In this document: piece by piece, positions 3,178 to 16,522 of the stretch
How positions within the stretch are numbered: the first letter of the stretch is position 1
Layout of the letters: each line of letters opens with the position of its first letter
Source of the DNA: a virus
Length of the DNA stretch: 21,774 bases
Direction: 5' to 3' (one strand)
Virus record (IMG/VR): IMGVR_UViG_3300042544_003899
Span: 1-21,774 of that record
The notes under the pieces: model-generated
What the model was told of the DNA's origin: nothing
Databases searched by the model: none
What the model saw: the letters and a program-made list of their open reading frames with translations, nothing else
Translations under genes and position numbers: made by a program

Positions 3178-3197
3178 AATAAAGCAAAGTTAGAATT

Positions 3198-3428
3198 ATG
3201 ACACCAAAAGAAAAAGCAAAAGAGTTATTCTTAAAATTTAGACAAATTCCACCATCAAGTCCTTATACAGGTATAGATGATGGTGAAGCAAAAGAATGCG
3301 TTAAGGTATTGATTAATGAGTTAATCAATCACTCAAAAGAAATGGCAATGGTATATGATTTATCTTTTGATGAATCTAGTAATTTTTATACTAAAGTTAA
3401 AAACGAAATAGATAATATAAAATTATAA
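3198..3428 (+). CDS. Small conserved phage protein (76 aa, MTPKEKAKEL type)
   Basis: It matches from memory a small-protein type frequent in Bacteroidota phages: an N-terminal helix MTPKEKAKELFLKF, a short loop, the helix AKECVKVLINELINH (commonly AKQCALIAVDEI in relatives), and a terminal helix ending VKNEIDNIKL. It is probably a small helical bundle of unknown role. It sits 20 bases after the previous gene and 4 bases before the next. Confidence 0.7.
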   Translation: MTPKEKAKELFLKFRQIPPSSPYTGIDDGEAKECVKVLINELINHSKEMAMVYDLSFDESSNFYTKVKNEIDNIKL

Positions 3429-3432
3429 AAAT

Positions 3433-3690
3433 ATGAAAATGTATTATTACAACCCAAACGATTACGGTGACCAATTTTTCGTTATGGCTGAGAACAAAAC
3501 AGAAGCACACGAATGCTTATTGAAACACCTTGAAAATAAAATTTTAACTGAAAGTTGTTACTCTGAAATGTATCAAGAAGATTTAGAAATATGGAAAAAG
3601 GTAAATCCTTTGGATGGTAAATCTTTCCCAAAAAAATACACTTTGGATGAACATGAGGTTGGGTCAGTTATTCAATCTGAAATTGCTTAA
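3433..3690 (+). CDS. Small hypothetical protein (85 aa)
   Basis: Not recognised as a named family. The start MKMYYYNPNDYGDQFFVMAENKTEA looks like a small beta strand pair followed by a helix, a pattern of many phage accessory proteins that report on or bind another protein. It is acidic, has no membrane segment and sits in a run of co-directional genes with short spacers. Confidence 0.65.
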   Translation: MKMYYYNPNDYGDQFFVMAENKTEAHECLLKHLENKILTESCYSEMYQEDLEIWKKVNPLDGKSFPKKYTLDEHEVGSVIQSEIA

Positions 3691-3732
3691 TATAAGTACT
3701 TGTTTTTACTAAAGTTAAAAAAGAAATTTGAT

Positions 3733-3960
3733 ATGGAAAAGCCTTGTCCATTTTGTTGTAATCCAAATGCTCTAGATCATAATACTGGAGAAGCATGTTG
3801 CTTTTGTGATTATGAAGGTGTGGTTTCTATTGGTAAATATGGTATGTTTACAGACTTAGAACAGTACAATAAAATATATTTTGCATCGAATCACAAAAGT
3901 AGATTAGATGAACTTCACGGTAGAAACGATAATGTTGAAAGAAGATTTAACTTAGGCTGA
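3733..3960 (+). CDS. Zinc-ribbon small protein (75 aa)
   Basis: I place the start at the ATG at 3733, preceded by an A-rich leader, not at the TTG 33 bases upstream. The protein begins MEKPCPFCCNPNALDHNTGEACCFCDYEG: CPFC at residues 5-8 and CCFC at about 22-25 make a four-cysteine zinc-binding knuckle like those in DnaJ-type zinc fingers. The rest is a short charged tail ending RRFNLG. The role is unknown; it is one of several zinc proteins in this stretch. Confidence 0.65.
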   Translation: MEKPCPFCCNPNALDHNTGEACCFCDYEGVVSIGKYGMFTDLEQYNKIYFASNHKSRLDELHGRNDNVERRFNLG

Positions 3961-4010
3961 CAATATTATGAAGAAGATTAAATGGTTACAAAAAAAATAA
4001 ATTTATAAAG

Positions 4011-4247
4011 ATGGATTTAAAAGAGAAAAAATCAAAAGTTGCTTTATGTAAAGGTTGTAAAGGTTTTATATTAGCATCGCATACTGACTATATGAGTAAA
4101 GCATCAGAAAAAGAATTTACTCAATTTACAAATGAGAGTTTCGAAGTTAAAATTGAAACATTAGAGAAAACGAGAAGTCGAAACCTTGTTTTTTATTCAG
4201 ACAAGAAAAATGGTAAATGCGAAGACTGTAACAAGCCTAAAGCTTGA
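4011..4247 (+). CDS. Small protein with paired CxxC motifs (78 aa)
   Basis: CKGC at residues about 13-16 and CEDC at about 70-73 form two CxxC pairs at the two ends of the protein, suggesting one zinc site that closes the fold. The middle is a charged helix-rich segment (SEKEFTQFTNESFEVKIETLE). No family name is known to me. It lies in the zinc-protein run. Confidence 0.65.
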   Translation: MDLKEKKSKVALCKGCKGFILASHTDYMSKASEKEFTQFTNESFEVKIETLEKTRSRNLVFYSDKKNGKCEDCNKPKA

Positions 4248-4292
4248 TTTTAGTGGACATTTTTATTGATTAATAACCAAAATTAAAATATA

Positions 4293-4607
4293 ATGGGATT
4301 AAAAATTTTTAAAGAATGTTGCAAAAACTGTCTTTTGTCAGAAGATAGAATTGTAAGTTCAAAAAGAGCAAAAGAAATTATAAAAGATTGTACAGAAAAT
4401 CAAACTCACTTCATTTGCCACAAAGCAACTATGGGTGGTGATGAAGAAATAGTTTGTAAAACGTTCTTTGACACCATTGGTCATAAAAGTCAAATGGTAA
4501 GAATTGCACAAAGGTTAAATGTTTTGGAATTTGTTGAGCAGTCGGATACCGAAAAGCTACCAACTTTCAAAGAAATGTCAACTCGTCAAAGGTCTATTGT
4601 AAAATGA
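4293..4607 (+). CDS. Conserved cysteine-rich protein (CKNCLLSEDRIVS type, 104 aa)
   Basis: The N-terminal block FKECCKNCLLSEDRIVSSKR, followed by CTENQTHFICHKATM, is a pattern I recognise from hypothetical proteins in Bacteroidota genomes and phages. Cysteines at about residues 9, 10, 13, 33, 42 and 55, with a His near 43, suggest a metal site, possibly zinc or an iron-sulfur cluster. The C-terminal part (MVRIAQRLNVLEFVEQ) is helical. The biological role is unknown. Confidence 0.65.
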   Translation: MGLKIFKECCKNCLLSEDRIVSSKRAKEIIKDCTENQTHFICHKATMGGDEEIVCKTFFDTIGHKSQMVRIAQRLNVLEFVEQSDTEKLPTFKEMSTRQRSIVK

Positions 4608-4643
4608 GGTATAATGTTTTACTAATTTTAAATACAGTAAATT

Positions 4644-5243
4644 ATGAGTGATGAAAAAATAATATTATTAGAAGATGTAAAAGTTGAATACAGAACTAAT
4701 TTAGAAGGATGGACTGGTGAAAATAATCTTTATTACGGCAAAGGTGATGAAGGTAAAAGAAGAGCTATCGAAGCTAATTATACACATAAGAAGTGTGAGT
4801 GTGGAAATATATTTGTAAAAAACAGTTATTGTAAACCTTGTTATGATAAAAAAAGTAAAGAAAACTTTCTTAAATTAGAAGCAGTTGAGTGGGACGGTGA
4901 ATCTTATATGTGTTTAAGAAACGACGATAGATTCTTTTGTGATATGGACGAGTTTATTGAATGGTGTATTGATGAAGAAATTGAAGATCCCACAGAAGTA
5001 CAACTAATGCTATGTGAACAAGAAGTAAAAATTTCGGAAATAAACATTGATGAACTTAATGAAGAATATTGTTCAGGCGATGGAGAGGAAGGTGTTTGTT
5101 ATCATCATCCTGAAATATCTGAAAAAGTTGAAGAATTAAATGAGTTAATTAGAAACGCTAAACCTAAACTTTGGTTTCAGTCTAATAAAAGAATTATAAT
5201 TCCGTCTACATTGGCATCTGAAATAAGAAGTGAGACTGATTAG
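4644..5243 (+). CDS. Phage zinc-ribbon protein (199 aa)
   Basis: A central zinc ribbon is visible: CECG at about residues 51-54 and CKPC at about 68-71, followed by KKSKENFLKLEAVEWDG. The order (TNLEGWTGENNLYYGKG, then zinc ribbon, then EWDGESY, then a region with FFCDMDEFIEWC) is characteristic of a protein family widespread in phages. The C-terminal half is acidic, with another Cys/His group around VCYHHPEISEKVEELN. The function is unknown; a role as a nucleic-acid or protein adaptor is a guess. Confidence 0.7.
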   Translation: MSDEKIILLEDVKVEYRTNLEGWTGENNLYYGKGDEGKRRAIEANYTHKKCECGNIFVKNSYCKPCYDKKSKENFLKLEAVEWDGESYMCLRNDDRFFCDMDEFIEWCIDEEIEDPTEVQLMLCEQEVKISEINIDELNEEYCSGDGEEGVCYHHPEISEKVEELNELIRNAKPKLWFQSNKRIIIPSTLASEIRSETD

Positions 5244-5335
5244 AATATTTTCAACTAGATATTTGACATTCCTGGGAGTGTTAGAATTCAATCTCAATCA
5301 TTAGGCGTTTTTAATTCACTAATAAATTAATTAAA

Positions 5336-5530
5336 ATGTTAATACAAAGAAATGATAATGAAATTTTGACATGTGGTGAAGCTGCTTTAATTGGTTTTTG
5401 CACTCATTTATTGGAACATATTCCTCCATCAAAAAGAGAGGAGAAAATTAAGTCTTTTGAAAAATTAAAAGACATGTTTCAGTTAAACTATTGTGTTGCG
5501 ACAGGGGAAATAATTAAAAGAAAAAGATAG
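5336..5530 (+). CDS. Small hypothetical protein (64 aa)
   Basis: Not recognised. The sequence is helical with a hydrophobic middle (EAALIGFCTHLLEHI) and a lysine/arginine-rich end (GEIIKRKR). There is an AT-rich 92-base gap before it with no clear promoter; the start follows the A-rich leader aattaattaaa, typical for the host group. Confidence 0.55.
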   Translation: MLIQRNDNEILTCGEAALIGFCTHLLEHIPPSKREEKIKSFEKLKDMFQLNYCVATGEIIKRKR

Positions 5531-5556
5531 TCTGTTTACAGTACAAAATTGTATAT

Positions 5557-5913
5557 ATGTATAAAACAAAAAGCGGAAGAATAGTTATGAAAAACAATGA
5601 CGGTTTTGATTACAAAGAAGTTTTTGAAAGTAATAGAAACTGGAATGATGTATCAAGCATATATTTAAACCATTGTAAAGATTGTGATAAAAAATTCTTC
5701 GGTAATAAGTATAGAATTGTTTGTAAAGAATGTCATCCAAACCCAAACCACTTTCCACAAGATGGAAAGTATTTCAATACATTTAGTCAAACACCTGTTG
5801 ATGGTAAAAGTAATCAGTTGGTTTGTAATATGTGCGGAAGCTCTAAATTAGAAGATTGTGGGAGTGGTGAATATGCTTGTGAAGATTGCGGACATTTCCC
5901 TATTACAAGTTAA
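5557..5913 (+). CDS. Double zinc-ribbon protein (118 aa)
   Basis: Two zinc ribbons are visible. The first has CKDC at about residues 41-44 and CKEC at about 57-60. The second has CNMC at about 90-93 and CEDC at about 108-111, resembling the zinc ribbons of TFIIB or transposase-type proteins. Such double ribbons usually bind nucleic acid or another protein. An alternative start is the ATG at 5587 (MKNNDGF); the first 10 residues are not needed for either ribbon, so the start is uncertain. Confidence 0.65.
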   Translation: MYKTKSGRIVMKNNDGFDYKEVFESNRNWNDVSSIYLNHCKDCDKKFFGNKYRIVCKECHPNPNHFPQDGKYFNTFSQTPVDGKSNQLVCNMCGSSKLEDCGSGEYACEDCGHFPITS

Positions 5914-5960
5914 ATACTACCAATAATAGGTTGATCAACTAATTTAAAATAAATAGAATT

Positions 5961-6152
5961 ATGAAAGTGGAAATTGGAGATATATTAGAATTGAGACACT
6001 ATGATACTAATGAAATTATACTTGAGAGAGTTACAAGTGTAGAAAATAAGGATACAGATGATGAGATGTTTCAAGTTAGAACCGAAAATATGTATTATGA
6101 TTTCATAAACTTTTATGAAGTAGTAAATATCTATAATAGATACAAACCTTAG
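5961..6152 (+). CDS. Small hypothetical protein (63 aa)
   Basis: Not recognised. MKVEIGDILELRHYDTNEIILERVTSVEN reads like a small SH3-like beta barrel, a common fold of very small phage proteins. It is acidic, without cysteines or membrane segments, and stands 47 bases after the double zinc-ribbon gene. Confidence 0.55.
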   Translation: MKVEIGDILELRHYDTNEIILERVTSVENKDTDDEMFQVRTENMYYDFINFYEVVNIYNRYKP

Positions 6153-6198
6153 TTTCTCTTATGCGCTATTATCGTTTAGTGTTTTAAAAAATAATATT

Positions 6199-6702
6199 AT
6201 GGAAAAATACAACAAAGAAGAACTTAGAAAAATTGCTCATTCATTAGGAATTAGACTTTTTGAAAGTGTTATGTCGCACAACAAAAAAGACAAAAAATTA
6301 CCAAATGAATTTTATCGAAATTATTATCAATCGGAAACAGACAACACATTTGAAAAGATGATTGAAAAAGGCTTTGCGACAAAAGATAAAAGGCTGAATT
6401 TAAACTACTACTTTATTACTGACTTAGGAATTGAAAAATTCAGAAAAGAATTTACTGAATTGGTTAATTATAAGCCAAAAAAAGAAAGAGATTTAAACTA
6501 TTTGAAAAACCGCATTAATTTCTATTGTGATTTTTATAATTATAGGTTTTGCGAAGATAATTCAGAACACGTTATTTCAGCTTATGTAAATTATTTTTTG
6601 AAAGGGTTTTATATGTCACATACTACGACTGATTGCGTGACTATATTTAGGCGGGAATTACGTTCTTTTAAAAACGTTCTCGTTGCTAAAGAGTTTGTTT
6701 AA
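6199..6702 (+). CDS. Hypothetical protein with winged-helix-like segment (167 aa)
   Basis: No named family recognised. Residues about 50-90 (NTFEKMIEKGFATKDKRLN, then LNYYFITDLGIEKFRKEF) resemble a winged helix: two helices, a wing with a beta hairpin, and a terminal helix, as in small DNA-binding proteins that sense whether a site is occupied. The C-terminal part is aromatic and cysteine-containing, with no clear motif. It ends 56 bases before the first gene of the cassette-like array, and I cannot tell whether it belongs to that array. Confidence 0.6.
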   Translation: MEKYNKEELRKIAHSLGIRLFESVMSHNKKDKKLPNEFYRNYYQSETDNTFEKMIEKGFATKDKRLNLNYYFITDLGIEKFRKEFTELVNYKPKKERDLNYLKNRINFYCDFYNYRFCEDNSEHVISAYVNYFLKGFYMSHTTTDCVTIFRRELRSFKNVLVAKEFV

Positions 6703-6758
6703 TATTAACGCCAGTGGACATCGATAGATCATGATAATAAATAAAAATTGGAAAAAAT

Positions 6759-6977
6759 ATGAATTGGAAAAAAGTGGAAGATGAATTACCTAAAAAAGAT
6801 GGTAATAGTAGTATTATGTGTATAGTATATGATATGTACAATGGTGTAGTTGTAAGACCATATAATGAATATCATAAATGTTGGGATGGTGAAGATGGTG
6901 ATGATTATTATTGCGATGCTATTGGTGGAAAGATAACTCATTGGATGGAGTTACCGTGTCCGCCAGCTTGCAACTAA
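6759..6977 (+). CDS. DUF551-family protein (cassette 1, 72 aa)
   Basis: The start WKKVEDELPKKDG, the middle with a variable strand region and the end KITHWMELPCPP match the DUF551 pattern, in which a W-x-x-V-x-D-x-LP start and a THWMPLP-x-PP end bracket a small beta domain. The function of DUF551 is unknown; it is common in phages and mobile elements. The stop codon TAA lies within the left box of the downstream attC-like site, as often seen in cassettes. Its own left cassette edge (expected GTTAGTTGC) is not found upstream. Confidence 0.75.
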   Translation: MNWKKVEDELPKKDGNSSIMCIVYDMYNGVVVRPYNEYHKCWDGEDGDDYYCDAIGGKITHWMELPCPPACN

Positions 6978-7048
6978 CGTTTCGCAACTAGCCGATGAGG
7001 GCTAACAAAAGATACTAATTCGCCCTTATTGGCTAGTTGCTGTTGGGC
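6972..7048 (+). other. attC-like site A
   Basis: The left box is AACTAAC (6972-6978), spacer GTTTC, left arm GCAACTAGCC (6984-6993), inner arm GAGGGC (6997-7002), a loop, inner arm GCCCTT (7022-7027), right arm GGCTAGTTGC (7031-7040, a perfect match), T, and right box GTTGGGC (7042-7048). Recombination would be expected after the G at 7042. The stem is the clearest of the set. Confidence 0.7.
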
Positions 7049-7076
7049 GCAGTTTTTTAATTTTAAATTTAATAAT

Positions 7077-7301
7077 ATGTCAGAAAGATTAACACAAAAA
7101 GAATTTATTGGACTATCACAAGATGAAGTTTTATTACTTAATGGTCATAGTTCAGATGAAAATGTAACAGAGGCTTGGAGAGGTGGTTATATTTATTTAA
7201 AAGAAAAACTTTCAAACTTCTATAATACATTAGAACAACATGAATTTTTTGAACAAATTGAAAATATAATCGAAGCAGACTTAAATGAGTTTGAAGATTA
7301 G
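7077..7301 (+). CDS. Hypothetical acidic protein (cassette 2, 74 aa)
   Basis: I place the start at ATG 7077, after an AT-rich leader 34 bases into the cassette; the upstream TTG at 7029 falls inside the attC-like site and is unlikely. The protein, from MSERLTQKEFIGLSQDEVLLLNG to the end EADLNEFED, is helical and acidic and has no known motif. The cassette ends are perfect 10-base complements. Confidence 0.6.
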   Translation: MSERLTQKEFIGLSQDEVLLLNGHSSDENVTEAWRGGYIYLKEKLSNFYNTLEQHEFFEQIENIIEADLNEFED

Positions 7302-7334
7302 CAATAGTTAGTTCGGGTATAGTTATCCAATTGC

Positions 7335-7400
7335 GCCCAACATTTTGCAACTTGGCGAATCTTGGATATGTACTTTTTTCTCGCCAAATTGCTGTTATGC
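7335..7400 (+). other. attC-like site B
   Basis: The left box is GCCCAAC (7335-7341), spacer ATTTT, left arm GCAACTTGGCGA (7347-7358), a 22-base centre, right arm TCGCCAAATTGC (7381-7392), T, and right box GTTATGC (7394-7400). The arms pair over 12 bases with one mismatch. The arm sequence is of a type common between genes in Flavobacteriia. Confidence 0.7.
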
Positions 7401-7431
7401 GACGTATTTTTAACAATTAAAATTAATTAAA

Positions 7432-7785
7432 ATGATAAAAGCAAACGAATTAAGAATTGGGAATTTAGTAAAAAACGGGTTAGGAGAATTTATAATAATT
7501 AAAAATAACATAAACGAAAGAAATACAGGTGGTTATATTTTAAAAACATTAGAACCTGTTCCACTAACAGAAGAATGGTTAATTAAGTTTGGGTTTATAA
7601 ATGATGAAGAAATAGGATATAGGTGGTATATTGAATGGGAAGGTTGTGTTATTTTAGCTTATGACTTAGACGATAAAGGTATTAGAGTTTCTGACACATG
7701 GGAATTTGGAAAACGTGAATACGTTCATCAACTTCAAAACTTATACTTCGCTTTAACAGGGTGCGAACTTCAATATGTTGCATAA
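7432..7785 (+). CDS. Conserved KANELRIGN/YVHQLQNLYFALTG protein (cassette 3, 117 aa)
   Basis: This is a very common small protein of Bacteroidota phages and mobile regions, recognised by MIKANELRIGNLV at the start, PVPLTEEWLIKFGF in the middle (about residues 43-56) and YVHQLQNLYFALTGCEL at the end (about 98-114). The function is unknown. The gene starts 37 bases into its cassette. Its stop codon TAA (7783-7785) lies in the left box of site C. Confidence 0.8.
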   Translation: MIKANELRIGNLVKNGLGEFIIIKNNINERNTGGYILKTLEPVPLTEEWLIKFGFINDEEIGYRWYIEWEGCVILAYDLDDKGIRVSDTWEFGKREYVHQLQNLYFALTGCELQYVA

Positions 7786-7873
7786 TGTTTTCGGGCTTGG
7801 CGAAGTGCCGCTACTCGAAACTTAAATTTTAGCACTAACTGTCCTGCGGCATTTTGCCAAACCCGTGTTATGG
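7780..7873 (+). other. attC-like site C
   Basis: The left box is GCATAAT (7780-7786), spacer GTTTT, left arm CGGGCTTGGC (7792-7801), inner arm TGCCGC (7806-7811), a central loop of about 34 bases, inner arm GCGGCA (7846-7851), right arm GCCAAACCCG (7856-7865), T, and right box GTTATGG (7867-7873). The outer arms have a single C/A mismatch in the same position as in site B. Confidence 0.7.
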
Positions 7874-7920
7874 GATAGTTTTAAAAACCTTTTAGGGTGG
7901 GTATTTAAACAACAATTAAA

Positions 7921-8235
7921 ATGGATTGGAAAAAAGAAAATCCCAAAAGCCGTTACATAGACGATATAAAATGGGAAGAAGCAAAGAAAATAGCTTTTTT
8001 AGCAGCAGGTAAACCCGAAGATTTTGAACTGGAGGAATTAAAAGCTGAATGTAATGGCAATAATATACCACACGTAAAGCTATTTTACAGATATTATGAG
8101 CCTATACTTGGCAATGGTGAAACAAATTTCATAGGGATATTTCATAACTTAAATACCTACTTAGGTAGAGGATTCGGAAGTGTATATTGCCAAGTAGAAT
8201 TATTCAAGGCTTTTGATGAAATGAAATTTGATTAG
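7921..8235 (+). CDS. Hypothetical protein (cassette 4, 104 aa)
   Basis: Not recognised. MDWKKENPKSRYIDDIKWEEAKKIAFLAAG is a helix-rich start; the rest has the aromatic segment VKLFYRYYEPILG and a glycine-rich turn YLGRGFGSVY, suggesting a compact alpha/beta domain. The gene begins 53 bases into its cassette. Both cassette ends match over 8 bases (GTTATGGG and CCCATAAC). Confidence 0.6.
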   Translation: MDWKKENPKSRYIDDIKWEEAKKIAFLAAGKPEDFELEELKAECNGNNIPHVKLFYRYYEPILGNGETNFIGIFHNLNTYLGRGFGSVYCQVELFKAFDEMKFD

Positions 8236-8268
8236 TAGGGTGCGGTGGGAAAAGGTTTTTAAAATTTC

Positions 8269-8400
8269 CCATAACGTTTTGCAGATTTGCGAGGGTTGGG
8301 GCTTTTACCACAGAATTAAATTTGAAACACAAAATTATGGATTTACTAAAAATATTATTTGAAAAACGACACCCCAACTCTTGCAAATGTGCTGTTAGTG
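8269..8400 (+). other. attC-like site D, with a long centre that contains a gene start
   Basis: The left box is CCATAAC (8269-8275), spacer GTTTT, left arm from 8281 (GCAGATTTGCGAGGGTTGGGG) and right arm ending at 8392 (CCCCAACTCTTGCAAATGTGC). They pair over about 21 bases with three mismatches. A T and the right box GTTAGTG (8394-8400) follow. The roughly 70-base loop is longer than in the other sites and contains the ATG of the next gene. Confidence 0.65.
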
Positions 8401-8573
8401 GCTGGGTGTCTTATGATTGGGATAAACCCGAAACCCGACCAACTAAATACGGTAAATACTTTGTTCACCGTAAAGATGGTAAAACACATTGGGAAACTTG
8501 GAACGGTTCGGGTTGGGCGTATAATGGAAATGTAATCACGTTTTGGATGGAGGTCTTCCCACCTTGCCACTAA
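8337..8573 (+). CDS. DUF551-like protein (cassette 5, about 78 aa), start inside attC-like site D
   Basis: The C-terminal part, with KYGKYFVHRKDGKTHWETWNG and then ITFWMEVFPPCH, has the layout of a DUF551 domain (a tyrosine-valine strand, W-N-G-S-G-W, a tryptophan-methionine strand, a double proline end), related to but distinct from cassette 1. The ATG at 8337 lies in the loop of site D and reading continues across the recombination point at about 8394. A GTG at 8406 is another possible start and would keep the protein within its cassette. Either the cassette lost its 5' part, or a fusion start has been captured from the preceding site. Confidence 0.6.
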   Translation: MDLLKILFEKRHPNSCKCAVSGWVSYDWDKPETRPTKYGKYFVHRKDGKTHWETWNGSGWAYNGNVITFWMEVFPPCH

Positions 8574-8590
8574 CTAGTTACTATGCGAAA
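8566..8590 (+). other. Truncated attC-like site E at the right end of the array
   Basis: GCCACTAAC (8566-8574) is a perfect 9-base complement of the right box that opens cassette 5, so this is the left box of the cassette. The stem arms and a clear right box are missing: the next bases (TAGTTACTATGCG) look like a collapsed remnant. The array apparently ends here by deletion. Confidence 0.55.
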
Positions 8591-8625
8591 CATTTTGTCA
8601 AATCAATACTGAATATTAATGTGTT

Positions 8626-8868
8626 ATGATTGTACAGGAAGTAAAAAAGAAAGCAATTTTTGAATTTAAAGACTTACCTATAGTAATGTTTGAAGATAAG
8701 TCTATTTATCACACTAAAAGAAAAAAAATAATAAATAAAAAACTAAATTGTAGATCTATTGGTTATTGGATTGATAGAAGGTTTTTTACATTAAGAAAAT
8801 TGAATAGTATTGCTTTTAAATCAAAAAAAGAAATTTTAATTGCAGAAATAATAGATTGTCCATTTTAA
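8626..8868 (+). CDS. Small basic phage protein (80 aa)
   Basis: The segment around NKKLNCRSIGYWIDRRFFTLRKLN is a pattern I recognise from small hypothetical proteins of phages and mobile elements in this host group: a lysine-rich two-strand unit followed by GSIGY-type and a basic strand. It is highly basic and could bind nucleic acid. No catalytic residues are evident. It lies after the end of the cassette array with its own A-rich leader. Confidence 0.6.
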   Translation: MIVQEVKKKAIFEFKDLPIVMFEDKSIYHTKRKKIINKKLNCRSIGYWIDRRFFTLRKLNSIAFKSKKEILIAEIIDCPF

Positions 8869-8874
8869 AAAAAT

Positions 8875-9474
8875 ATGATGATAGAAAATATAAAAATTAC
8901 AGATTTTGCCAAGAGGCATTTTGATTCAAAATTTGGAGGTACAAAGATTTTAAATGTTACTCCTGAAGATTTTGAACATATGATAAATACTTTACATACA
9001 TCAGCTCATACAGAGCATTTGTTTGAGCGTGTTATTCCAGGTTATGCTGATTTTTGTAAACTATTAGTTGTGAAAAATTTTACAAATGCAAAAACTGGTA
9101 CTTTGCCTATTACGTTGGAAAATTATCAATATCTTAGAACTGGTTATTCTGCTAGAACAGAAAGTGAACTTCCTATTATGGAAAGATGGTTTGAATTGCC
9201 AATCCCAGCCCCAACTGCAAAATATCTAGTTCTTGTATTATATTCAAAAGAACAATTAGATAAAGAGAGAAAAGAGGGTGAAGAAGAATTTGATGGAGAT
9301 TTCGGGGTGGTGGCAATACTAGCTCAAATGTCTGCGGAAGAGGAAGTTATGAAACCTATAACTATGATGCGAAATGCATTGGGTATAGAAGAAGGAGGAT
9401 CTGGAGTTCCAATAGATAGAGATGCTTATAAAAAGTCAGTCGAATTTTGGTCTAAGAATGCTACGGTAAAATAA
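8875..9474 (+). CDS. DUF3228-family protein (199 aa)
   Basis: The family is recognised by a string of conserved blocks: ERVIPGYADFCKLLVVKNFTN (about residues 51-71), PITLENYQYLRTGYSARTESELPIMERWF (about 78-106), LVLVLYSKEQLDKE (about 118-131) and PITMMRNALGIEEGGSGVPIDRDAY (about 160-184). DUF3228 occurs in bacteria, plants and some phages; no reaction is established to my knowledge. The length fits a complete protein. The start is one of two adjacent ATG codons (8875 or 8878). It is the last gene before promoter copy 2. Confidence 0.85.
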   Translation: MMIENIKITDFAKRHFDSKFGGTKILNVTPEDFEHMINTLHTSAHTEHLFERVIPGYADFCKLLVVKNFTNAKTGTLPITLENYQYLRTGYSARTESELPIMERWFELPIPAPTAKYLVLVLYSKEQLDKERKEGEEEFDGDFGVVAILAQMSAEEEVMKPITMMRNALGIEEGGSGVPIDRDAYKKSVEFWSKNATVK

Positions 9475-9477
9475 AAT

Positions 9478-9505
9478 TGTAACTTTTTGTGTTTATATGC
9501 GTATA
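9478..9505 (+). promoter_or_regulatory. Phage promoter motif copy 2 (TGTAAC-N16-CGTATA)
   Basis: Both boxes match the consensus exactly with 16 bases between them. The gene start is 29 bases downstream of the second box (lipoprotein at 9534). As in copy 1, the second box is in an inverted repeat: GTTTATATGCGTA (9491-9503) with TACGATATAAAC (9507-9518), one extra base in the left arm. Confidence 0.7.
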
Positions 9506-9533
9506 GTACGATATAAACATAAAAACAAGTTAT

Positions 9534-9986
9534 ATGAAAAATTTAATTTTTATTACTGCAACTTCTCTATTTTTGTTCTCTTGCGGACAAAAGGAAGTTA
9601 AGAGTGTAAACGAGCCAGTTGCTGAAGTTTCTGAAGAAGTAAGTGTAGACCCTTCAATGTCAAACCCTGAATTGTTTTTGGGTAGTGGTGTAGGCCCTGC
9701 ATTTATGTCTTTTGTTAAGACACAAAACTTTGAGATAGCACTTCAGTTTACTTCTAAGGTGTCAATTGACAAACATGGTCGTGAGGTGATTTTAGATAAA
9801 TACAAAAGTCTAAAAACAAACTATACTTTGAAAAAAGTTTCCACTTCTAAAAATAGTGCTGAAACTATATTGAGGTATACGACTAATGAATTTGCCACAA
9901 GTAAGTTTAAAGACTTTGTGGTGGTTGTTGAAAATGATTCTTGCAAGATTTTATTGCCTGATAATTTAGAAGAGTTCTTAAAATAA
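9534..9986 (+). CDS. Predicted lipoprotein (150 aa)
   Basis: The N-terminus MKNLIFITATSLFLFSCGQK is a lipoprotein signal peptide with lipobox LFSC, so Cys17 should be lipidated after cleavage by signal peptidase II. The acidic linker after it (EVKSVNEPVAEVSEEVSVD) is typical of Bacteroidota lipoproteins. The mature domain is a small alpha/beta domain with LDKYKSLKTNYTLKKVST and a beta-rich end; I do not recognise it. It has its own promoter motif and is followed by a palindromic A8-TA-T8 hairpin, so it may be a single-gene unit. A phage lipoprotein could alter superinfection or the envelope, but that is inference. Confidence 0.75.
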   Translation: MKNLIFITATSLFLFSCGQKEVKSVNEPVAEVSEEVSVDPSMSNPELFLGSGVGPAFMSFVKTQNFEIALQFTSKVSIDKHGREVILDKYKSLKTNYTLKKVSTSKNSAETILRYTTNEFATSKFKDFVVVVENDSCKILLPDNLEEFLK

Positions 9987-10002
9987 AAAAAATATTTTTT
10001 TT
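9985..10002 (+). terminator. A8-TA-T8 palindrome (possible weak terminator)
   Basis: Eight A, TA, then eight T directly follow the lipoprotein stop codon and lie just before promoter copy 3. A pure A-U hairpin ending in U-run may stop transcription or melt the promoter region. Confidence 0.35.
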
Positions 10003-10006
10003 ATAT

Positions 10007-10034
10007 TGTAACTTTTTGTAGTTTTGTTCGTAAA
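10007..10034 (+). promoter_or_regulatory. Phage promoter motif copy 3 (TGTAAC-N16-CGTAAA)
   Basis: Spacing is 16 bases; the second box has one change (CGTAAA). The ATG of the coiled-coil gene is 17 bases downstream. It probably drives the 10051-13759 unit. Confidence 0.65.
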
Positions 10035-10050
10035 GTAAAAAAAAAGTCAA

Positions 10051-10782
10051 ATGAGTTGGAAAGATTTATTCATTGTAAACAATGAAGAAGAAACAAAAAA
10101 GGAAGCACTTGTTACCAATGGTGGTGAACCTGTAAAGTTTCCTAGTGGTGATCCTGTAAAGTTTCCAGGCACAAATGTGAATGTTACAATGGCTCCTTCG
10201 GGATTTGGAACACCACAAATGGGAGTCCCAAGTGCAGGAATACCAATAGAGAGCAATCCGATGTGTCAGCCACATATGGAAAAAATCATGCAGATGTATG
10301 AAGTTGGTTTTGATGGGCTGAATATGGAAGGATATGATTTCTTTGAGTTCTATAAAGCTATTTTATCCGCTGGAGCTGATGTTCCTGCAGTTTATCCTAT
10401 GGCTTTCACAATGGCACAGTCAATGGACAAGAAGATAACAAAAGATTTGCTGGTAACTCAATCAGATTTTTATGTTCAAGAAATTTCTAAAGTTCATACC
10501 AAATATGTAGAGGGTGGAAGTGGAAAGAAAAATGAACTCTTAAGTAGAAAAGAAAATGAGAGAGAACAATTGGGCACAGAAGTTCAAAATTTAAGAATGC
10601 AAATTGAAGCATTGACAAATCAAATGAATAACGCTCAAAACAATTTGACTCAAATAGATAATAAGTATGCCAATGACTTGATGGAAGTTGAATGCAAGTT
10701 GATGGCTAATGATGTTGCTAAGAATAATTTATTAGCTTCGATTGATAAAGTAAAACAAGGTTTAATTAATAATGTTAAGTAA
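10051..10782 (+). CDS. Coiled-coil protein of the ABC/envelope block (243 aa)
   Basis: The N-terminal 70 residues are low-complexity with proline and glycine, including an 8-residue tandem repeat (EPVKFPSG then DPVKFPG). Residues about 70-150 are a folded, methionine-rich helical region (QPHMEKIMQMYEVGF and MEGYDFFEFYKAILSAG). From about 160 to the end is a predicted coiled coil (GTEVQNLRMQIEALTNQMNNAQNNL). There is no signal peptide or membrane segment, so it is cytoplasmic and probably a partner of the membrane coiled-coil protein encoded 8 bases downstream. I do not know a family name. Its promoter makes it the first gene of the unit. Confidence 0.75.
   Translation: MSWKDLFIVNNEEETKKEALVTNGGEPVKFPSGDPVKFPGTNVNVTMAPSGFGTPQMGVPSAGIPIESNPMCQPHMEKIMQMYEVGFDGLNMEGYDFFEFYKAILSAGADVPAVYPMAFTMAQSMDKKITKDLLVTQSDFYVQEISKVHTKYVEGGSGKKNELLSRKENEREQLGTEVQNLRMQIEALTNQMNNAQNNLTQIDNKYANDLMEVECKLMANDVAKNNLLASIDKVKQGLINNVK
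10121..10168 (+). repeat. 24-base tandem repeat inside the coiled-coil gene
   Basis: Two in-frame copies of a 24-base unit, differing at 3 positions (GTGGTGAACCTGTAAAGTTT and GTGGTGATCCTGTAAAGTTT at their starts), encode EPVKFPSG/DPVKFPG. This is an expansion-prone linker in the protein. Confidence 0.7.
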
Positions 10783-10790
10783 AAAGTAAA

Positions 10791-11894
10791 ATGGAGACAC
10801 AGAGCACATACATGAATCTTCCTATTATGAAACACTTTAATGAAGGTGAAATTTCTAGTAAGGTTGATAAATTTAGAAAAGGAGAAAAAGGACTTTTTTG
10901 GTTCTTAAAGTTGGGAGCATTAATTGGGTTGGGTTATTTAACATGGGTGTATGTATTGCCACCATTGTTCTTAGCTATTGGTCAATTCTTAGCTGTTGCT
11001 GCAACAGGAATATTATTGGTCGGGTTGATTATAGCAATGCCAGTTATTTTGAAAGGTATTCGTGTTCTTACACGAAACTTGCATAAGGCAATAATTAAGC
11101 ATGATCCTTTTGCTGAATTGGAAAATCAAAAACAACTGATGGTTGCGAACCAACAAAAATTTAGACAGGCTAAAGGTAAAATTGCAAACCTTAGACAAGA
11201 TATGGAAGTTGAAGCTTCTCAATCAGAGAAGGATGCTAAAGAAATGCAAAACCGTATTGTATCATTACAAACTAAAGCTCAAAAATTAAAAGCTCAGTTG
11301 GATGAAATGGTTGCGAAAGGCGGTGCCGCAGCTAGAGGTTCTGATGAATATGTAAACGGTAATGCTGAACTTATGAAGTTGTTGTCTGAAGCACAACGTG
11401 TAGGACACCAAATGGAGCAATCTAAAGACTTCGTTACTAAATACGGAACAAGAGCCAATATTATGAAGAAATTCGGACAAAAATTGGTGATGGTTGAAAC
11501 AAGTATGGACATTAAAGTATTGGACTTCGATGCTACAATTGAAATCTTGAAGAAAGATTACGCATTTGCTCAGAAATCTAAAGAAGCAACTGAAAGCGCA
11601 AAATCAGCAATGTTGTTTACTAAGAGTTGGGAACTTGATTACGCATTGGATGTTGTAACAAGTACAATTGCTGAAGATATCGCAGTTACAGCTGGTAACT
11701 TGAATGATATCGACACATTGACAAGCAAATACTCATTGGATAGTGATGAGTTGTACGCTAACCTTGATGCGTTGGCAAATCAAATCAAAATTGGCGCTGA
11801 AGCTGTACCATCAGCTAAGGCATACAATAACCCTGAATACCAACTTACTAGTGATGACAAACTAAAAAGTGGTGGATTTGGGGATTTATTTTAA
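10791..11894 (+). CDS. PspA-like membrane coiled-coil protein (367 aa)
   Basis: After a short hydrophilic start there are two hydrophobic segments, about residues 34-56 and 58-88, that should form a hairpin in the inner membrane. Residues about 105-180 are a long charged coiled coil (LENQKQLMVANQQKFRQAKG, then EMQNRIVSLQTKAQKLKAQL), similar in style to PspA/IM30-type proteins. A second helical part follows (about 200-310), and the C-terminus is acidic and ends GGFGDLF, a possible short binding peptide. It lies between the coiled-coil gene and the SBP-OmpA gene in one unit, and I infer a cytoplasmic scaffold that links the ABC complex to partner proteins or supports the membrane. Not a known PspA by sequence alone. 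Confidence 0.75.
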   Translation: METQSTYMNLPIMKHFNEGEISSKVDKFRKGEKGLFWFLKLGALIGLGYLTWVYVLPPLFLAIGQFLAVAATGILLVGLIIAMPVILKGIRVLTRNLHKAIIKHDPFAELENQKQLMVANQQKFRQAKGKIANLRQDMEVEASQSEKDAKEMQNRIVSLQTKAQKLKAQLDEMVAKGGAAARGSDEYVNGNAELMKLLSEAQRVGHQMEQSKDFVTKYGTRANIMKKFGQKLVMVETSMDIKVLDFDATIEILKKDYAFAQKSKEATESAKSAMLFTKSWELDYALDVVTSTIAEDIAVTAGNLNDIDTLTSKYSLDSDELYANLDALANQIKIGAEAVPSAKAYNNPEYQLTSDDKLKSGGFGDLF

Positions 11895-11944
11895 TAACAA
11901 ATAAATAAGTGTAATTAGATTTAAATTAATTAAAAAAAAGAAAA

Positions 11945-13759
11945 ATGGGAAAAATTTTAAGAACAAAAAATTTAACAACAGGTTTTGAAGCTATTATTGT
12001 TGTTTTTGGACTGGCAATTATCTTGACTGGTGTATACTATTTAGCGCCTGGACTTCGAGTGGATGATTCTAAAAAGTTAAACGGAATGGAGTTGAGTGAT
12101 GATAATATCGACAACAACACAAAGAGTGCATTGATTGAGTTGCCTTCGACTGAATTGTCTAGCGTGGCTTCTGAAAGACCGCTTGTAAGAGTTGCTGGAT
12201 ATGCTTGGAATAGCCAATCTGGTATTATCGTTGCAAATGGAGGACCTAAGACTACAGAGGGTTCAATTATGGAAAAGAATGGTCTTAATGTTGAGATTAT
12301 TCGTCAGGATTGGGTTTCTGAGTTGAGAAATATGCAAATGAAGTTTATTGAGGAATTTGATCGTGGTGTTGAATATCCTAAGTCTAACAAAAGTGCATAT
12401 GCTGTAATGATTATGGGTGATGGTGCTCCGTTCTATATTTCAACTATGCAAGCTGCATTGGATGAGAAATTTGGTGAGGGTAAATATCATGTAGAAGTAC
12501 AAGGGTGTTTCGGTATGTCAAATGGAGAAGATAAATTGATTGGTCCTAAAGAGTGGAAAACAAATCCTCAAACAATGAAAGGTTCTCTTATTTCAGCAGT
12601 TCTTGGTGATGGTGACTGGGTTGTTGCATTAAATTACGCATCAGCTAATGGTTTGAAAGTAAATCCTGATGTAACTACTTATGATCCTGAGGCTGTAAAC
12701 TTCTATCCTTCTGAAGATGATGATTATATTAACTCTGCAAAAGAATTGATTAAATCTCAAAACAGTGGATTTGCAGTTGACTTGAAAGAAATTAAAGATG
12801 GTAAATTGACAGGTAAAACTATTAAGAAGAAAATTGATGGCTGTTCAACTTGGACTCCTGGTGATAAAATGGTTTTTGATGCTGTAGCTGGAGTTACTGA
12901 TATCGTATCTACTAGAGAGTTTAAAAACCAAATGCCTACAACGTTTATTGGTGTTAAAGAGTGGGCAAGCAAACACCCTAAGACAGTTTCTAATATCTTG
13001 AAGTCAGCATTAACCGCATCAAACCAAATGAAACAATATGATTCTTGGAGAGTTCGTGCTTCTGAAGCTGTATCTGAAACGTTTAATCTTGAAACTCCTA
13101 AATATTGGTATAATATGTTTAAGGGTGAAAAAATTACTAAGAATGGTATGACATATAATGTTGGAGGTTCTAAAGTTCTTAACTACGCAGACGTTATGCA
13201 ATATTATGGAATTACTGATGGAGTTGACAGATACAAAGCAGTTTATAATCAAGTATCTACTTATCTTACAGAGTTGAACCCATTTGGATTTAATGAGTCA
13301 GTAAAAGGTGTTGTTCCTTATAGCGAAGCAGTGAACTTGTATTACTTGAAAAATATTGAAGATATTGAAGTGGGTACTGCAGAACACTCGGACTATACGG
13401 AAACTAAAACTAAGGTAATGGCATCAGGAAACTGGTCAATTAACTTCTCAACTGGTAGTGCAACTATTGAGTCTGTTTCTTACAAGGATCTTGAGAAAAT
13501 CTATAACTTGTTAATTCAAGCGGAGGATGCTAAATTGAGAATTGTTGGTCACACAGATAACGTAGGTAATCCTGCAAGCAACAAGACTTTGTCTAGAAGT
13601 AGAGCAAATTCAGTTGTTGAATACCTTGAAAGTCGTGGAATCCCTTCATCTCGTATTCAAGAAATTGATGGTAAAGGTGATGCTCAGCCAGTGGCTTCAA
13701 ATGCAACAGCTGCAGGTAAGGCTAAAAACCGAAGAGTAGAAGTTACATTGCTACAATAA
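11945..13759 (+). CDS. ABC substrate-binding protein fused to OmpA peptidoglycan-binding domain (604 aa)
   Basis: The protein has an N-terminal membrane anchor (about residues 14-34, not a cleaved signal), a periplasmic ligand-binding domain and a C-terminal OmpA-like domain. The ligand-binding part is of the nitrate/taurine type and has the string MIMGDGAPF, then EDKLIGPKEWKTNPQTMKG, then VLGDGDWVVALNYASANGLK, then TYDPEAVNFYPSEDDDY, then STWTPGD and VSTREFKNQMPTTFIGV, as in bacterial proteins annotated as phosphate ABC transporter substrate-binding/OmpA. OmpA signature residues are at about 535-545 (VGHTDNVGN), 548-556 (TLSRSRANS) and the end NRRVEV. The anchor holds it in the inner membrane while OmpA binds peptidoglycan. 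The substrate is unknown. A strong terminator follows. Confidence 0.85.
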   Translation: MGKILRTKNLTTGFEAIIVVFGLAIILTGVYYLAPGLRVDDSKKLNGMELSDDNIDNNTKSALIELPSTELSSVASERPLVRVAGYAWNSQSGIIVANGGPKTTEGSIMEKNGLNVEIIRQDWVSELRNMQMKFIEEFDRGVEYPKSNKSAYAVMIMGDGAPFYISTMQAALDEKFGEGKYHVEVQGCFGMSNGEDKLIGPKEWKTNPQTMKGSLISAVLGDGDWVVALNYASANGLKVNPDVTTYDPEAVNFYPSEDDDYINSAKELIKSQNSGFAVDLKEIKDGKLTGKTIKKKIDGCSTWTPGDKMVFDAVAGVTDIVSTREFKNQMPTTFIGVKEWASKHPKTVSNILKSALTASNQMKQYDSWRVRASEAVSETFNLETPKYWYNMFKGEKITKNGMTYNVGGSKVLNYADVMQYYGITDGVDRYKAVYNQVSTYLTELNPFGFNESVKGVVPYSEAVNLYYLKNIEDIEVGTAEHSDYTETKTKVMASGNWSINFSTGSATIESVSYKDLEKIYNLLIQAEDAKLRIVGHTDNVGNPASNKTLSRSRANSVVEYLESRGIPSSRIQEIDGKGDAQPVASNATAAGKAKNRRVEVTLLQ

Positions 13760-13780
13760 CAAACATAAAACCATACGAAA

Positions 13781-13809
13781 GGAGAGTGAGTTTTTGCTCT
13801 CCTTTTTTT
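13781..13809 (+). terminator. Strong Rho-independent terminator
   Basis: GGAGAG (13781-13786) pairs with CTCTCC (13797-13802) around a 10-base loop, followed by seven T. It ends the unit that includes the SBP-OmpA gene, just before promoter copy 4. Confidence 0.85.
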
Positions 13810-13818
13810 GTGTAATAT

Positions 13819-13846
13819 TGTAACATTTTTTTATTACATTCGTATA
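13819..13846 (+). promoter_or_regulatory. Phage promoter motif copy 4 (TGTAAC-N16-CGTATA)
   Basis: Both boxes match the consensus exactly at a 16-base spacing. The ligase ATG is 17 bases downstream. It follows the strong terminator, so ligase starts a new unit. Confidence 0.7.
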
Positions 13847-13862
13847 AAAAAGAAAAACATTT

Positions 13863-15260
13863 ATGGAGATAAAGCAAATTCTAGATGAGATTTCAAGTGA
13901 ACCTGGAAAGAATCAGAAAATGGTTATTCTAGGAAAGTATGCAGACAATGAACTATTGAAGCGTGTGTTGTATATGGCAAACTCTAGTCGAGTGAAGTTC
14001 TATATCAAGCAAATTCCTGAGTATACTCGTAAAAATGAGCAAACAAATACGTTGGACTTTGTTATCAACGAACTAGGTCATATCTCAAGAAGAGAGGTGA
14101 CTGGAAATGATGCGTTGCGTTTCTTAAGTGATTTGTTGTCCACATTGAGTCCAAATGATGCTTATGTGATTGAGCGCATTATCGAAAAGGATCTTAAAAT
14201 TGGAATGGATTCTAGCATTAATAAAGTTTTCAAAAACCTTATTGAAGAAACTCCTTATATGGGTGCAGTTTCTTTTGATGAGAAGAAAGCTAGAAAGTTG
14301 TTTGAGAAAGGCAGTAAAGCATATTCTCAAGTTAAGATGGATGGTAGATATTGCAATGCAACTATTAATGGCGGAGTGGTATATTTAGAAAGCCGTCAAG
14401 GTGAGCCAACAATTGTAACTGGTGCAAAATTCCTAGAAGAATTGGCATTGCTGAATGACGTTGTTCTAAATGGGGAATTGACGATGGATGGGGTTCCTCG
14501 TTATGAGTCAAACGGAATCATTGCCTCAATTATTGATATTTGCGGAAAGCGTGGTGAGAGAACTGAGCAAGAAAATTCTAAAAAACTTTCTACATTTGAA
14601 AGCAAGCATGGAAACTTTGAAGAAGCATTGTCTAAAATTCGTTATACAGTATGGGACATGATTACTGTTGATGAATATAATGCAGCTAGTTCAAAAACTC
14701 CATACATCACAAGGTTGAAAAATTTAGAAGGTGTTTTGTTTGGAAATGAAAACCTTTTAAGCATGGTTTCAATTATTGAAAACAGAGAGGTGAATACTTT
14801 CGAAGAAGCAATGGAACACTTCAAGGAAATGTTGGGTCGTGAAGAAGAAGGAACAATTCTAAAAGCACAGATTGGCGAATGGAAGGATGGCAAGCCCTTG
14901 TGGCAATTGAAATTAAAACTAGAATTGACATTAGATTTGGTTATCACAGGTTTCAATTACGGAACAAAAGGTACAAAAAATGAACATGTTGTTAGTTCTT
15001 TGAATGCTGAAACATCTTGTGGTCTTTTAAAAACAAGACCTCAGGGTTTGAAAGAAGACTTGATGAAAGAAATCACTGAAAACCAAGAAAGCTTATTGGG
15101 TACAATTATTGAAGTTAAATGCTCAGGGCTTTCATTTGACAATACAGGTGCATACTCATTGTTGTATCCCGCATTTAAACATTTCAGAGACGATAAGGGT
15201 ACAGCCAATTCACTGGAAGAGTGCATCGAAATACAAAACGCAGCTTTAGGCTTAGAGTGA
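13863..15260 (+). CDS. ATP-dependent DNA ligase, T4 gp30 type
   Basis: This 465-residue enzyme seals nicks in DNA by forming an enzyme-AMP, then a DNA-AMP intermediate. The adenylation motif I is KMDGRYC, with Lys158 as the predicted AMP-bearing residue, close to Lys159 of T4 ligase (487 residues). Motif III is around LNGELTMDG, motif IV EEGTILKA (about residues 322-330) and motif V around LWQLKLKLELTLD (about 342-354). Motif VI, RDDK (residues 442-445), is in the last 45 residues. The N-terminal region up to about 140 is a helical DNA-binding domain. It has a promoter of its own. Its stop codon (15258-15260) abuts the stop of the inverted endonuclease gene with no gap, and its last 39 codons have a diverged second copy at 16387. 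Confidence 0.93.
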   Translation: MEIKQILDEISSEPGKNQKMVILGKYADNELLKRVLYMANSSRVKFYIKQIPEYTRKNEQTNTLDFVINELGHISRREVTGNDALRFLSDLLSTLSPNDAYVIERIIEKDLKIGMDSSINKVFKNLIEETPYMGAVSFDEKKARKLFEKGSKAYSQVKMDGRYCNATINGGVVYLESRQGEPTIVTGAKFLEELALLNDVVLNGELTMDGVPRYESNGIIASIIDICGKRGERTEQENSKKLSTFESKHGNFEEALSKIRYTVWDMITVDEYNAASSKTPYITRLKNLEGVLFGNENLLSMVSIIENREVNTFEEAMEHFKEMLGREEEGTILKAQIGEWKDGKPLWQLKLKLELTLDLVITGFNYGTKGTKNEHVVSSLNAETSCGLLKTRPQGLKEDLMKEITENQESLLGTIIEVKCSGLSFDNTGAYSLLYPAFKHFRDDKGTANSLEECIEIQNAALGLE

Positions 15261-16016
15261 TTATAATTTAATTGCATACCAATTAATATAATTTTTATTT
15301 TTTACTAAAACTTCTTTTTTTATTGTCTTACCAATATAAATTGGTTTACCGTTATTGTAATAAGATTTTCTTAGAGCTTTAGTAGGTAAACCATTTTCTT
15401 TACATGTACTCTCAAAATTGCCATTGCATTCAAACAATAAAATCCCTTCACTGTTGTAGATATTAACTTTAATAGCTGCAGGGTTATTATGTTTTAAATT
15501 CTTACCTTTCATGCGTTCTGACATCTTTAATCTATCTTCTTCAGACCGTTTTAGTCCAGTTATTGATTTTATAACATTTAGTTTATGCTCCTCTGATTTA
15601 GGTTTATTTATTAAGGATTTTGAAATATTGTTTTTATGAGTATCGCTTTGTTTAGTTCCTATTTTAGAAATGCTCATTTTCTGTTTAGATTCAATAGAAT
15701 GTTTAAACTCACCACGATTTCCACCACCTTTTGTCATATTATATCCATTGACATAAGAATCAAATTTTGAAACATAATAAATTTCCAATAAATTAGCTTC
15801 AGTTTTGTATTTAATGTTTTCCATTAAAATTTCTTCATTAAAATTATCGATACCATATTTTTTAATAGCTTGATGAAATTTAAATTTAGGTGACTTATTG
15901 CTAGCTAGTATATGTTCATATTTTCTAGTTTTAAAACTACGATTAGTCAATCCAATGTAGATTTTCCCATTTACTTTATTTGTAAATTTATATATGATAT
16001 AATACTTATTTTCCAT
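15261..16016 (-). CDS. GIY-YIG homing endonuclease with NUMOD repeats
   Basis: On the minus strand, the 251-residue protein starts with the GIY-YIG nuclease domain (YYIIYKFTNKVNGKIYIGLT, residues about 5-24, with Arg at about 31 and the Glu in NLLEIYYVSK as catalytic candidates). It continues with two or three NUMOD3-like helix-turn-helix repeats (FKHSIESKQKMSISKIG and KPKSEEHKLNVIKSITG, about 108-170) and a NUMOD1-like DNA-binding end (IKVNIYNSEGILLFECNG... IYIG). Such genes cut DNA at a target and spread by repair. It is convergent with the ligase, stop to stop, and overlaps the start of a small RHH gene, which is read in the same direction. Probably a selfish element inserted just after the ligase stop. 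Confidence 0.9.
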   Translation of the reverse strand: MENKYYIIYKFTNKVNGKIYIGLTNRSFKTRKYEHILASNKSPKFKFHQAIKKYGIDNFNEEILMENIKYKTEANLLEIYYVSKFDSYVNGYNMTKGGGNRGEFKHSIESKQKMSISKIGTKQSDTHKNNISKSLINKPKSEEHKLNVIKSITGLKRSEEDRLKMSERMKGKNLKHNNPAAIKVNIYNSEGILLFECNGNFESTCKENGLPTKALRKSYYNNGKPIYIGKTIKKEVLVKNKNYINWYAIKL

Positions 16017-16149
16017 TATTTACAATCTCTTTTTCAAGAAAATTTCTAATTCTCTGACTCATATTATATCCATTAATTTTACAAATTTCTTTGTATTTAA
16101 CAAACAAACTTTCTTCAATCCTTATTATAATTGTTTTTTCTTTTTTCAT
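16006..16149 (-). CDS. Small ribbon-helix-helix protein (47 aa)
   Basis: I place the start at ATG 16149; a longer frame to 16188 exists but its first part is hydrophobic and unlikely. MKKEKTIIIRIEESLFVKYK has the strand-helix pattern of the CopG/Arc family (IIIRIEESL forms the DNA-binding strand) followed by a second helix (GYNMSQRIRNFLEKEI). It overlaps the downstream endonuclease start by 11 bases, so the two form one unit. A likely role is to repress the endonuclease promoter upstream or to mark the site; this is inference. Confidence 0.65.
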   Translation of the reverse strand: MKKEKTIIIRIEESLFVKYKEICKINGYNMSQRIRNFLEKEIVNNGK

Positions 16150-16240
16150 ATATATAATGTTTATACATTTATATATAAATATAAACAAATTTGTAAAAAC
16201 AATAAATAAAAAAATAATTTAATTTTTATTATCTAGATAA

Positions 16241-16268: not shown

Positions 16269-16287
16269 ATTATTTAAAACAGAAAAA

Positions 16288-16506: not shown

Positions 16507-16522
16507 TTTAAAAAGTAAAAAA

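Follow-up and report, generated by a model that had tools for sequence, protein, structure and literature searches.

The DNA analysed here, referred to as the window, is the complete 21,774-base IMG/VR record IMGVR_UViG_3300042544_003899, a linear phage fragment. It contains four attC-like sites in a row, each with a small open reading frame (ORF) on the same strand, and the row ends at an attI-like flank that is followed by an ORF of 80 amino acids (aa). An earlier note, made from the letters of the window, had described integron-like gene cassettes inside a phage genome, and this description is upheld by the sites, their paired boxes, the matches of covariance models and the relatives presented below. 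Positions 6979-8574 are very probably four integron-type cassettes lying at an attI-like site in a Bacteroidota phage, with sites of a family that is common to chromosomal and phage arrays.

Sites, paired boxes and cassettes of the window

Each site begins with an AAC box and a five-base spacer, continues with two pairing arms, and closes with a single T and GTT. The positions and these elements are as the earlier note had given them, except that the third site has AAT instead of AAC. Of 11 arm bases, 10 are paired in sites 1 and 2 and nine in sites 3 and 4. A scan for this layout in the shuffled window is expected to yield 2.4 sites with at least 9/11 paired arm bases and 0.19 with at least 10, so the layout alone is suggestive, and it is the boxes that carry the weight. 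The box ending each cassette is complementary to the GTT box of the same cassette at 10/10, 8/10 (the AAT box), 9/10 and 9/10 positions, which confirms the pairing noticed before. Beyond the GTT, 25 of the 28 positions agree, and to the question, also raised earlier, of whether the boxes pair no better than chance, the answer is that the true pairing tops all 24 permutations. The two boxes within one site match at only 3-4 of 7 positions. The features of canonical integrons borne out in the window are thus the AAC...GTT ends with the R''/L''/L'/R' layout and a pairing of boxes per cassette, not per site.

Intergenic inverted repeats could be hairpins of another kind, namely intrinsic terminators, transposase-moved repeats of the repetitive extragenic palindrome (REP) or miniature inverted-repeat transposable element (MITE) type, or structured RNA elements; indeed, attC sites may act as weak terminators (PMC9892861). 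Such a nature of the sites is extremely improbable. A search of the sites against Rfam gave no significant family, only a chance match, and the AAC..GTT layout, the conserved mismatches and the pairing of boxes between neighbours, not within a site, constitute an integron signature that these alternatives do not predict.

Table 1. The cassette array of the window and its borders. Bit scores are those of the covariance model R2 described in the next section.
Feature	Position	Strand	Description
DUF551 ORF	6759..6977	+	ends in first AAC box
attC-like site 1	6969..7051	+	AAC 6976-6978, 5-nt spacer, stem G.T at 11 and 14, T, GTT 7042; 51.0 bits
Cassette A, 363 bp	6979..7341	+	attC 1 + ORF 7080-7301 (73 aa, no family)
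attC-like site 2	7332..7403	+	AAC 7339-7341, C.A mismatch at stem position 5, GTT 7394; 46.8 bits
Cassette B, 445 bp	7342..7786	+	attC 2 + ORF 7432-7785 (117 aa, phrog_10066, unknown function)
attC-like site 3	7777..7876	+	AAT 7784-7786, C.A at 5, G.T at 11 and 14, GTT 7867; 69.1 bits
Cassette C, 489 bp	7787..8275	+	attC 3 + ORF 7921-8235 (104 aa, no family)
attC-like site 4	8266..8403	+	AAC 8273-8275, G.G at 4, G.T at 11 and 14, GTT 8394; 88.9 bits
Cassette D, 299 bp	8276..8574	+	attC 4 + ORF 8337-8573 (78 aa)
Closing R box GCCACTAAC	8566..8574	+	homology of the relative L082 starts here
attI-like flank TAGTTACTATGCGAAACATTTTGTCAAATCAATAC...	8575..8625	+	kept in L082
80-aa ORF at integrase position	8626..8868	+	kept in L082, no Pfam or PHROG match

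The array is read as four complete cassettes, each with the attC first and the ORF after it, because natural insertions and deletions in relatives fall at the AAC box. Cassette ends placed at GTT were replaced by AAC ends after the comparisons with L082 and the Freya phages presented below. The last cassette ends exactly at 8574, and not at a truncated fifth attC. The ORF of cassette D starts inside the attC loop, and the same is true of the Freya cassette c7. The cassette B protein has homologs in Bacteroidota genomes and in other Bacteroidota phages, whereas no relative of the cassette C protein was found among viral contigs. A megablast search against phage records found nothing, and the cassette proteins had no match among defence systems. 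The DUF551 ORF to the left is probably the remainder of an older cassette without its attC. To the right, the attI-like flank comprises 51 nt up to the next start codon, within the range of 41-67 nt that precedes phage integrases. The gene beside the array (8875-9474) encodes a DUF3228 protein (1.4e-61; a family of unknown function), which is kept in L002 and L082.

The cassettes can be compared with two related loci. In L002, positions 3178-8874 of the window are missing, while the flanks are homologous (76-92% nt). L082 is homologous from position 8570 on, including the attI-like flank and the 80-aa ORF (79% aa), and to the left of the AAC box it is unrelated to the window, with a different cassette whose own box match is 8/10. 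The break of homology is exactly the window's last AAC box. The proposal that the phage acquired its cassettes is therefore supported by the absence of the whole region from L002 and by the other cassette at the same boundary in L082, and the comparison of relatives that had been suggested shows turnover at a cassette boundary. It should be noted that positions 3178-6975 are also missing from L002; they were considered as cassettes, but no convincing site was found there and they are not claimed as such. These ~3.8 kb of small ORFs beside the array are a separate kind of variable region without an attC-like site.

No match to the tyrosine recombinase family PF00589 was found in the 21.8-kb window. 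With at least two attC sites and no integrase nearby, the window corresponds to a cluster of attC sites lacking integron-integrases (CALIN); since the record is a fragment, an integrase could lie elsewhere in the genome. The 80-aa ORF was considered as an integrase remnant and rejected, as it matches no family and its sole relative among the fetched loci is that of L082.

Site family and recombinase in Bacteroidota chromosomes

A covariance model built from the four window sites (R1) was run on related bacteria, as the earlier note had advised. Within the Bacteroidota class that holds a Flavobacteriales metagenome-assembled genome, R1 matched 130 of 295 genomes, often in arrays of ~138-nt sites, although some weak model matches may be false. 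R1 seeded a second model, R2, which was built solely from bacterial matches and finds the four window sites with E = 3e-19, 3e-14, 9e-10 and 1e-8. The AAC-to-GTT length of window site 4, 121 nt, is the commonest length among the bacterial sites. Their stems have conserved mismatches as well, G.G at position 4 or C.A at 5, and G.T at 11 (43%) and at 14 (80%). The pairing of neighbouring boxes lies outside the covariance model and is thus an independent test of the bacterial arrays. Among 125 bacterial sites, own-cassette boxes match at a mean of 6.22/7 positions (n=97), compared with 3.18 for the two boxes of one site and 3.07 for boxes paired across a skipped site.

The array genomes encode a tyrosine recombinase, usually of 340-375 aa, to which the integron integrase family TIGR02249 matches on either side of the IntI-specific insert but not inside it. 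When aligned jointly with IntI1, the array recombinases have nothing that corresponds to its residues 200-230 and 242-252; all of them fall below the TIGR02249 cut-off, and most of the bacterial ones bear an extra N-terminal part of ~75 aa. A search for an IntI-type recombinase, as had been proposed, would have failed here, because the relevant enzymes are without the IntI-specific insert. A canonical IntI above the cut-off occurs in one of 395 genomes of the class, and near it the R1 search found no site of this type.

Sites are present in 53/67 genomes with a strong recombinase match and in 77/228 others (odds ratio 7.4, p=3.6e-11, kinship being ignored here as in all the genome statistics). 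In 20 neighbourhoods picked by recombinase score, 31 sites were found in 283 kb, while a control of 358 kb of other Bacteroidota loci contained two. Twelve of these neighbourhoods hold sites, and in each of the 12 the recombinase lies on the GTT side. Of 78 bacterial cassette ORFs, 70 are on the minus strand with respect to the site. Read along the ORFs, the bacterial layout is consequently the conventional one, with the recombinase first and then the cassettes; a placement of the recombinases downstream of the cassettes was dropped, since the ORFs face the other way relative to the site.

Phage arrays, integrases and cassette turnover

The exact 22-base core pattern of the sites was found in 25 metagenomic IMG/VR contigs, which is a lower bound for the phage contigs with such sites; ~0.02 would be expected in random sequence by our estimate. 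R2 identifies arrays in most of them, with up to 18 sites in a 62-kb record (in several clusters) and eight in a 310-kb record. Viral hallmarks are encoded on the array records themselves, for example, the terminase large subunit on G407, G411, G417 and G436, terminase and major head protein on G410, and a crAss-type muzzle protein on G419. The own-box match in phage arrays is 5.42/7 versus 3.48 (p=4e-8 without the window). The record L216, listed as viral, has at 7983-15077 a recombinase of the long form and five sites with the bacterial ORF polarity, and is possibly a prophage edge or bacterial DNA.

Could the array of the window be a piece of a host array, captured once by illegitimate recombination and now carried as an immobile passenger? 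The absence of an integrase from the window fragment and the commonness of the site family in Bacteroidota chromosomes would agree with such an origin, and the same explanation has been given for published phage CALINs (PMC9892861). The ORF, however, is on the strand of the site in 52 of 53 phage cassettes but in only 8 of 78 bacterial ones (p=1e-26). Phage cassettes are also about half as long (median 470 nt versus 1084 nt), and the sampled ones have no protein in common with the 78 host cassettes, while some proteins are common between phages. Because their ORFs face the other way and no protein is in common with the sampled host cassettes, the phage arrays are not simply host arrays picked up. 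Considering also that L082 differs from the window exactly at a cassette boundary and that several arrays and an integrase are present in many phages, a passive capture is unlikely. The window itself fits the pattern of the Bacteroidota phage arrays, in that its sites are found by the model trained on bacteria, a same-strand ORF follows each site and the cassettes are short.

The earlier note had the phage carrying its cassettes without an integrase of its own. This holds for the 21.8-kb fragment, in which no insert-less integrase lies 41-67 nt past the last cassette and the 80-aa ORF takes its place, but seven other array-bearing phage records do encode a tyrosine recombinase, of 263-286 aa. 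Six of the seven genes are located 41-67 nt past the AAC box that closes the last cassette, and the opening box of this cassette matches it at 9/9. The catalytic residues are invariant across the integrase alignment, and the predicted fold (mean predicted local distance difference test score, pLDDT, 86; predicted template modelling score, pTM, 0.64) is nearest to 2a3v (IntI4) and then to XerA. The phage integrases are separate from the bacterial array recombinases in the tree and fall into at least two clades, the deep branches being weakly supported; the phages thus probably did not take up the host enzyme recently. Among cultured phages, a protein search detected the same enzyme in Polaribacter phages Freya_1-10 as well as in Cellulophaga phage Ingeline. 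After the last AAC box, the phage arrays of L323-L328 often start with TAYYATATA or similar, a possible conserved attI core; the corresponding sequence in Freya is ACCCCTATAAC.

The Freya isolates show what happens at this point. They vary between a common left flank ending in TTTACAAC and the sequence ACCCCTATAAC... just before the integrase, where Freya_1 has 0 bp inserted, Freya_2 842, Freya_5 1744, Freya_6 a further 472 and Freya_10 4942. Blocks are missing as well, the last one of 307 bp in Freya_9 and one interior block of 902 bp in Freya_8. Each block ends in AAC and holds a GTT box complementary (9-10/11) to its own end, and the flanks are 99.8-100% identical among the isolates compared. 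Gain and loss of whole cassettes is thus seen both among the Freya isolates and between L082 and the window. In relatives, the Freya insertion point and the ends of the phage arrays point to an attI beside the integrase at which cassettes would enter; in the window, the attI-like flank has no integrase next to it.

Ordinary mosaicism might produce these differences, if co-infecting phages recombined homologously through the hairpin repeats with no integrase involved. The sites are repeats, mosaicism is seen in phages of the window lineage, and the difference from L002 spans 5.7 kb, not one cassette. Such ordinary mosaicism would leave unexplained the complementarity of own-cassette boxes, the constant Freya insertion point by the integrase with its empty form (Freya_1), and the integrases at array ends, so that it is very unlikely to account for the arrays.

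A different doubt concerns the enzymes, which could be ordinary lysogeny integrases that lie near the arrays by coincidence. PHROGs place them in phrog_1 integrase, and Bartlau et al., who report genome sizes of 44.0-48.9 kb for Freya, took its integrase to indicate a temperate lifestyle (PMC8776804); the word "integron" is absent from their paper. In six of seven cases the gene is 41-67 nt away from the box that closes the last cassette, and the Freya isolates vary exactly at that point, both of which argue against an incidental position. In the sister phage Danklef the integrase frame is disrupted, and no difference exists between the two compared isolates over the surrounding 5.5 kb. On this evidence we regard a mere lysogeny function as improbable, and prefer to see in these enzymes the integrases of the cassette arrays.

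Proposed mechanism and relation to known integrons

The partner enzyme would be a tyrosine recombinase related to XerA and IntI and without the IntI-specific insert. Each cassette would be a circle that carries a single hairpin site plus a single small ORF and whose borders are AAC boxes, read as G^TT on the opposite strand. We infer that the sites fold as single strands and that the enzyme is catalytically active on them: the integrase would bind the hairpin of the cassette site, and the AAC/GTT core would recombine with the attI beside the integrase gene. Whole cassettes would in this way be gained beside the integrase, and excision between sites would lead to their loss from within arrays. 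In the window lineage, the enzyme would probably be supplied in trans by a co-infecting phage or a host array, or come from a gene elsewhere in the phage, because the attI-adjacent gene is there the 80-aa ORF and not an integrase. With the ORF after the site, the genes of phage arrays point towards the integrase, and in the window their direction is that of the surrounding phage genes; such a polarity may be selected for expression.

Several points weigh against reading the array as integron-type cassettes. The window fragment is without an integrase, and the IntI insert that is missing from the family recombinases is thought to be needed for attC binding. The sites are also without the canonical bulged L'', whose extrahelical bases choose the strand; their arms are equally long and have the conserved mismatches at 4/5, 11 and 14 instead. 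The Freya sites are barely detected by R2 (24.5 bits) and form a divergent branch, so that Freya supports the mechanism only by analogy within the enzyme family. No site was found in any of 83 loci of ligase or DUF3228 relatives, and beyond the window, arrays among the relatives of its ligase are confined to the 136-kb record G424 (six sites), G421 having one weak match. To our knowledge, no recombination assay exists for this enzyme family.

As for the rest of the window, a GIY-YIG endonuclease gene (15261-16016, minus strand) and a small minus-strand ORF lie right behind the DNA ligase gene, and the ORF 16288-16506 ends in a stretch of ~45 aa that nearly copies the ligase C-terminus. The segment 13863-16506 resembles the outcome of a homing endonuclease insertion in which the ligase gene had its end duplicated or replaced. 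Around the ligase, at 9534-20744, are genes for a membrane protein, an OmpA-type fusion, an ABC permease and ATPase, and an AAA ATPase; this cluster is common to the closest relatives L001-L003, and none of the fetched ligase relatives that are more distant showed it. A tRNA cluster (Pro, Asp, Tyr, Pro) is located at the fragment end (21148-21634).

Can such a system be called an integron? It shares with canonical integrons the unit of ORF and recombination hairpin, the complementarity of R boxes within a cassette, the AAC/GTT core, the array beside an integrase and attI, and an integrase fold whose best match is IntI4. It would work like an integron but lacks two canonical features, the IntI insert and the bulged attC, and in phages it further differs by the ORF following the site. 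For all these recombinases the top-scoring NCBI family is XerA (NF040815). XerA resolves chromosome dimers at dif, whereas the present enzymes sit at cassette arrays.

CALINs in virulent phages, one of them a Polaribacter phage, have already been published, and IntI1 recombined 5/6 of the tested phage CALIN sites with attI1 (Qi et al. 2023, PMC9892861). They resemble the present arrays in having attC-type sites and small cassettes in phages, but were called by canonical attC models and explained as captured pieces (PMC9892861). The arrays described here differ by a distinct site family, a recombinase of their own, a phage-specific ORF polarity and natural cassette turnover. The Polaribacter phage P12002L of that study is matched only weakly by R2 (19.8 bits). 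Vibrio phage and prophage integrons likewise combine integrase and cassettes in a phage genome, but they are fragments of canonical IntI integrons of the host in temperate phages (Qi et al. 2023). Within Bacteroidetes, IntegronFinder 2.0 reported a complete integron in Salinibacter only (PMC9024848). A search of the open-access literature, subscription papers and preprints aside, found neither this system of Bacteroidota nor phage integrons that have an enzyme of this type described. The insert-less integrase system, the phage-specific polarity and the natural cassette turnover therefore appear to be new.

Going beyond the window, it is fairly likely that Bacteroidota phages, including jumbo and crAss-like ones, have an integron class of their own, with an XerA/IntI-like integrase that has no insert, a short attI and a pool of small cassettes of reversed polarity that is confined to phages, by which accessory genes would be gained and lost during circulation, independently of the host arrays that use a sister enzyme. 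Integrons have been regarded as rare in Bacteroidota, and here a distinct integron-type system is found in a substantial fraction of the genomes sampled from one class and in phages. The published standard searches rely on IntI and canonical attC models and are expected to miss it. For the phages, the system would offer a modular means of trading accessory genes, and the "integrase" of cultured flavophages would have to be reinterpreted. It would also constitute a natural test of cassette recombination without the IntI insert, and since the Freya isolates differ by whole cassettes in culture, the mechanism is directly testable.

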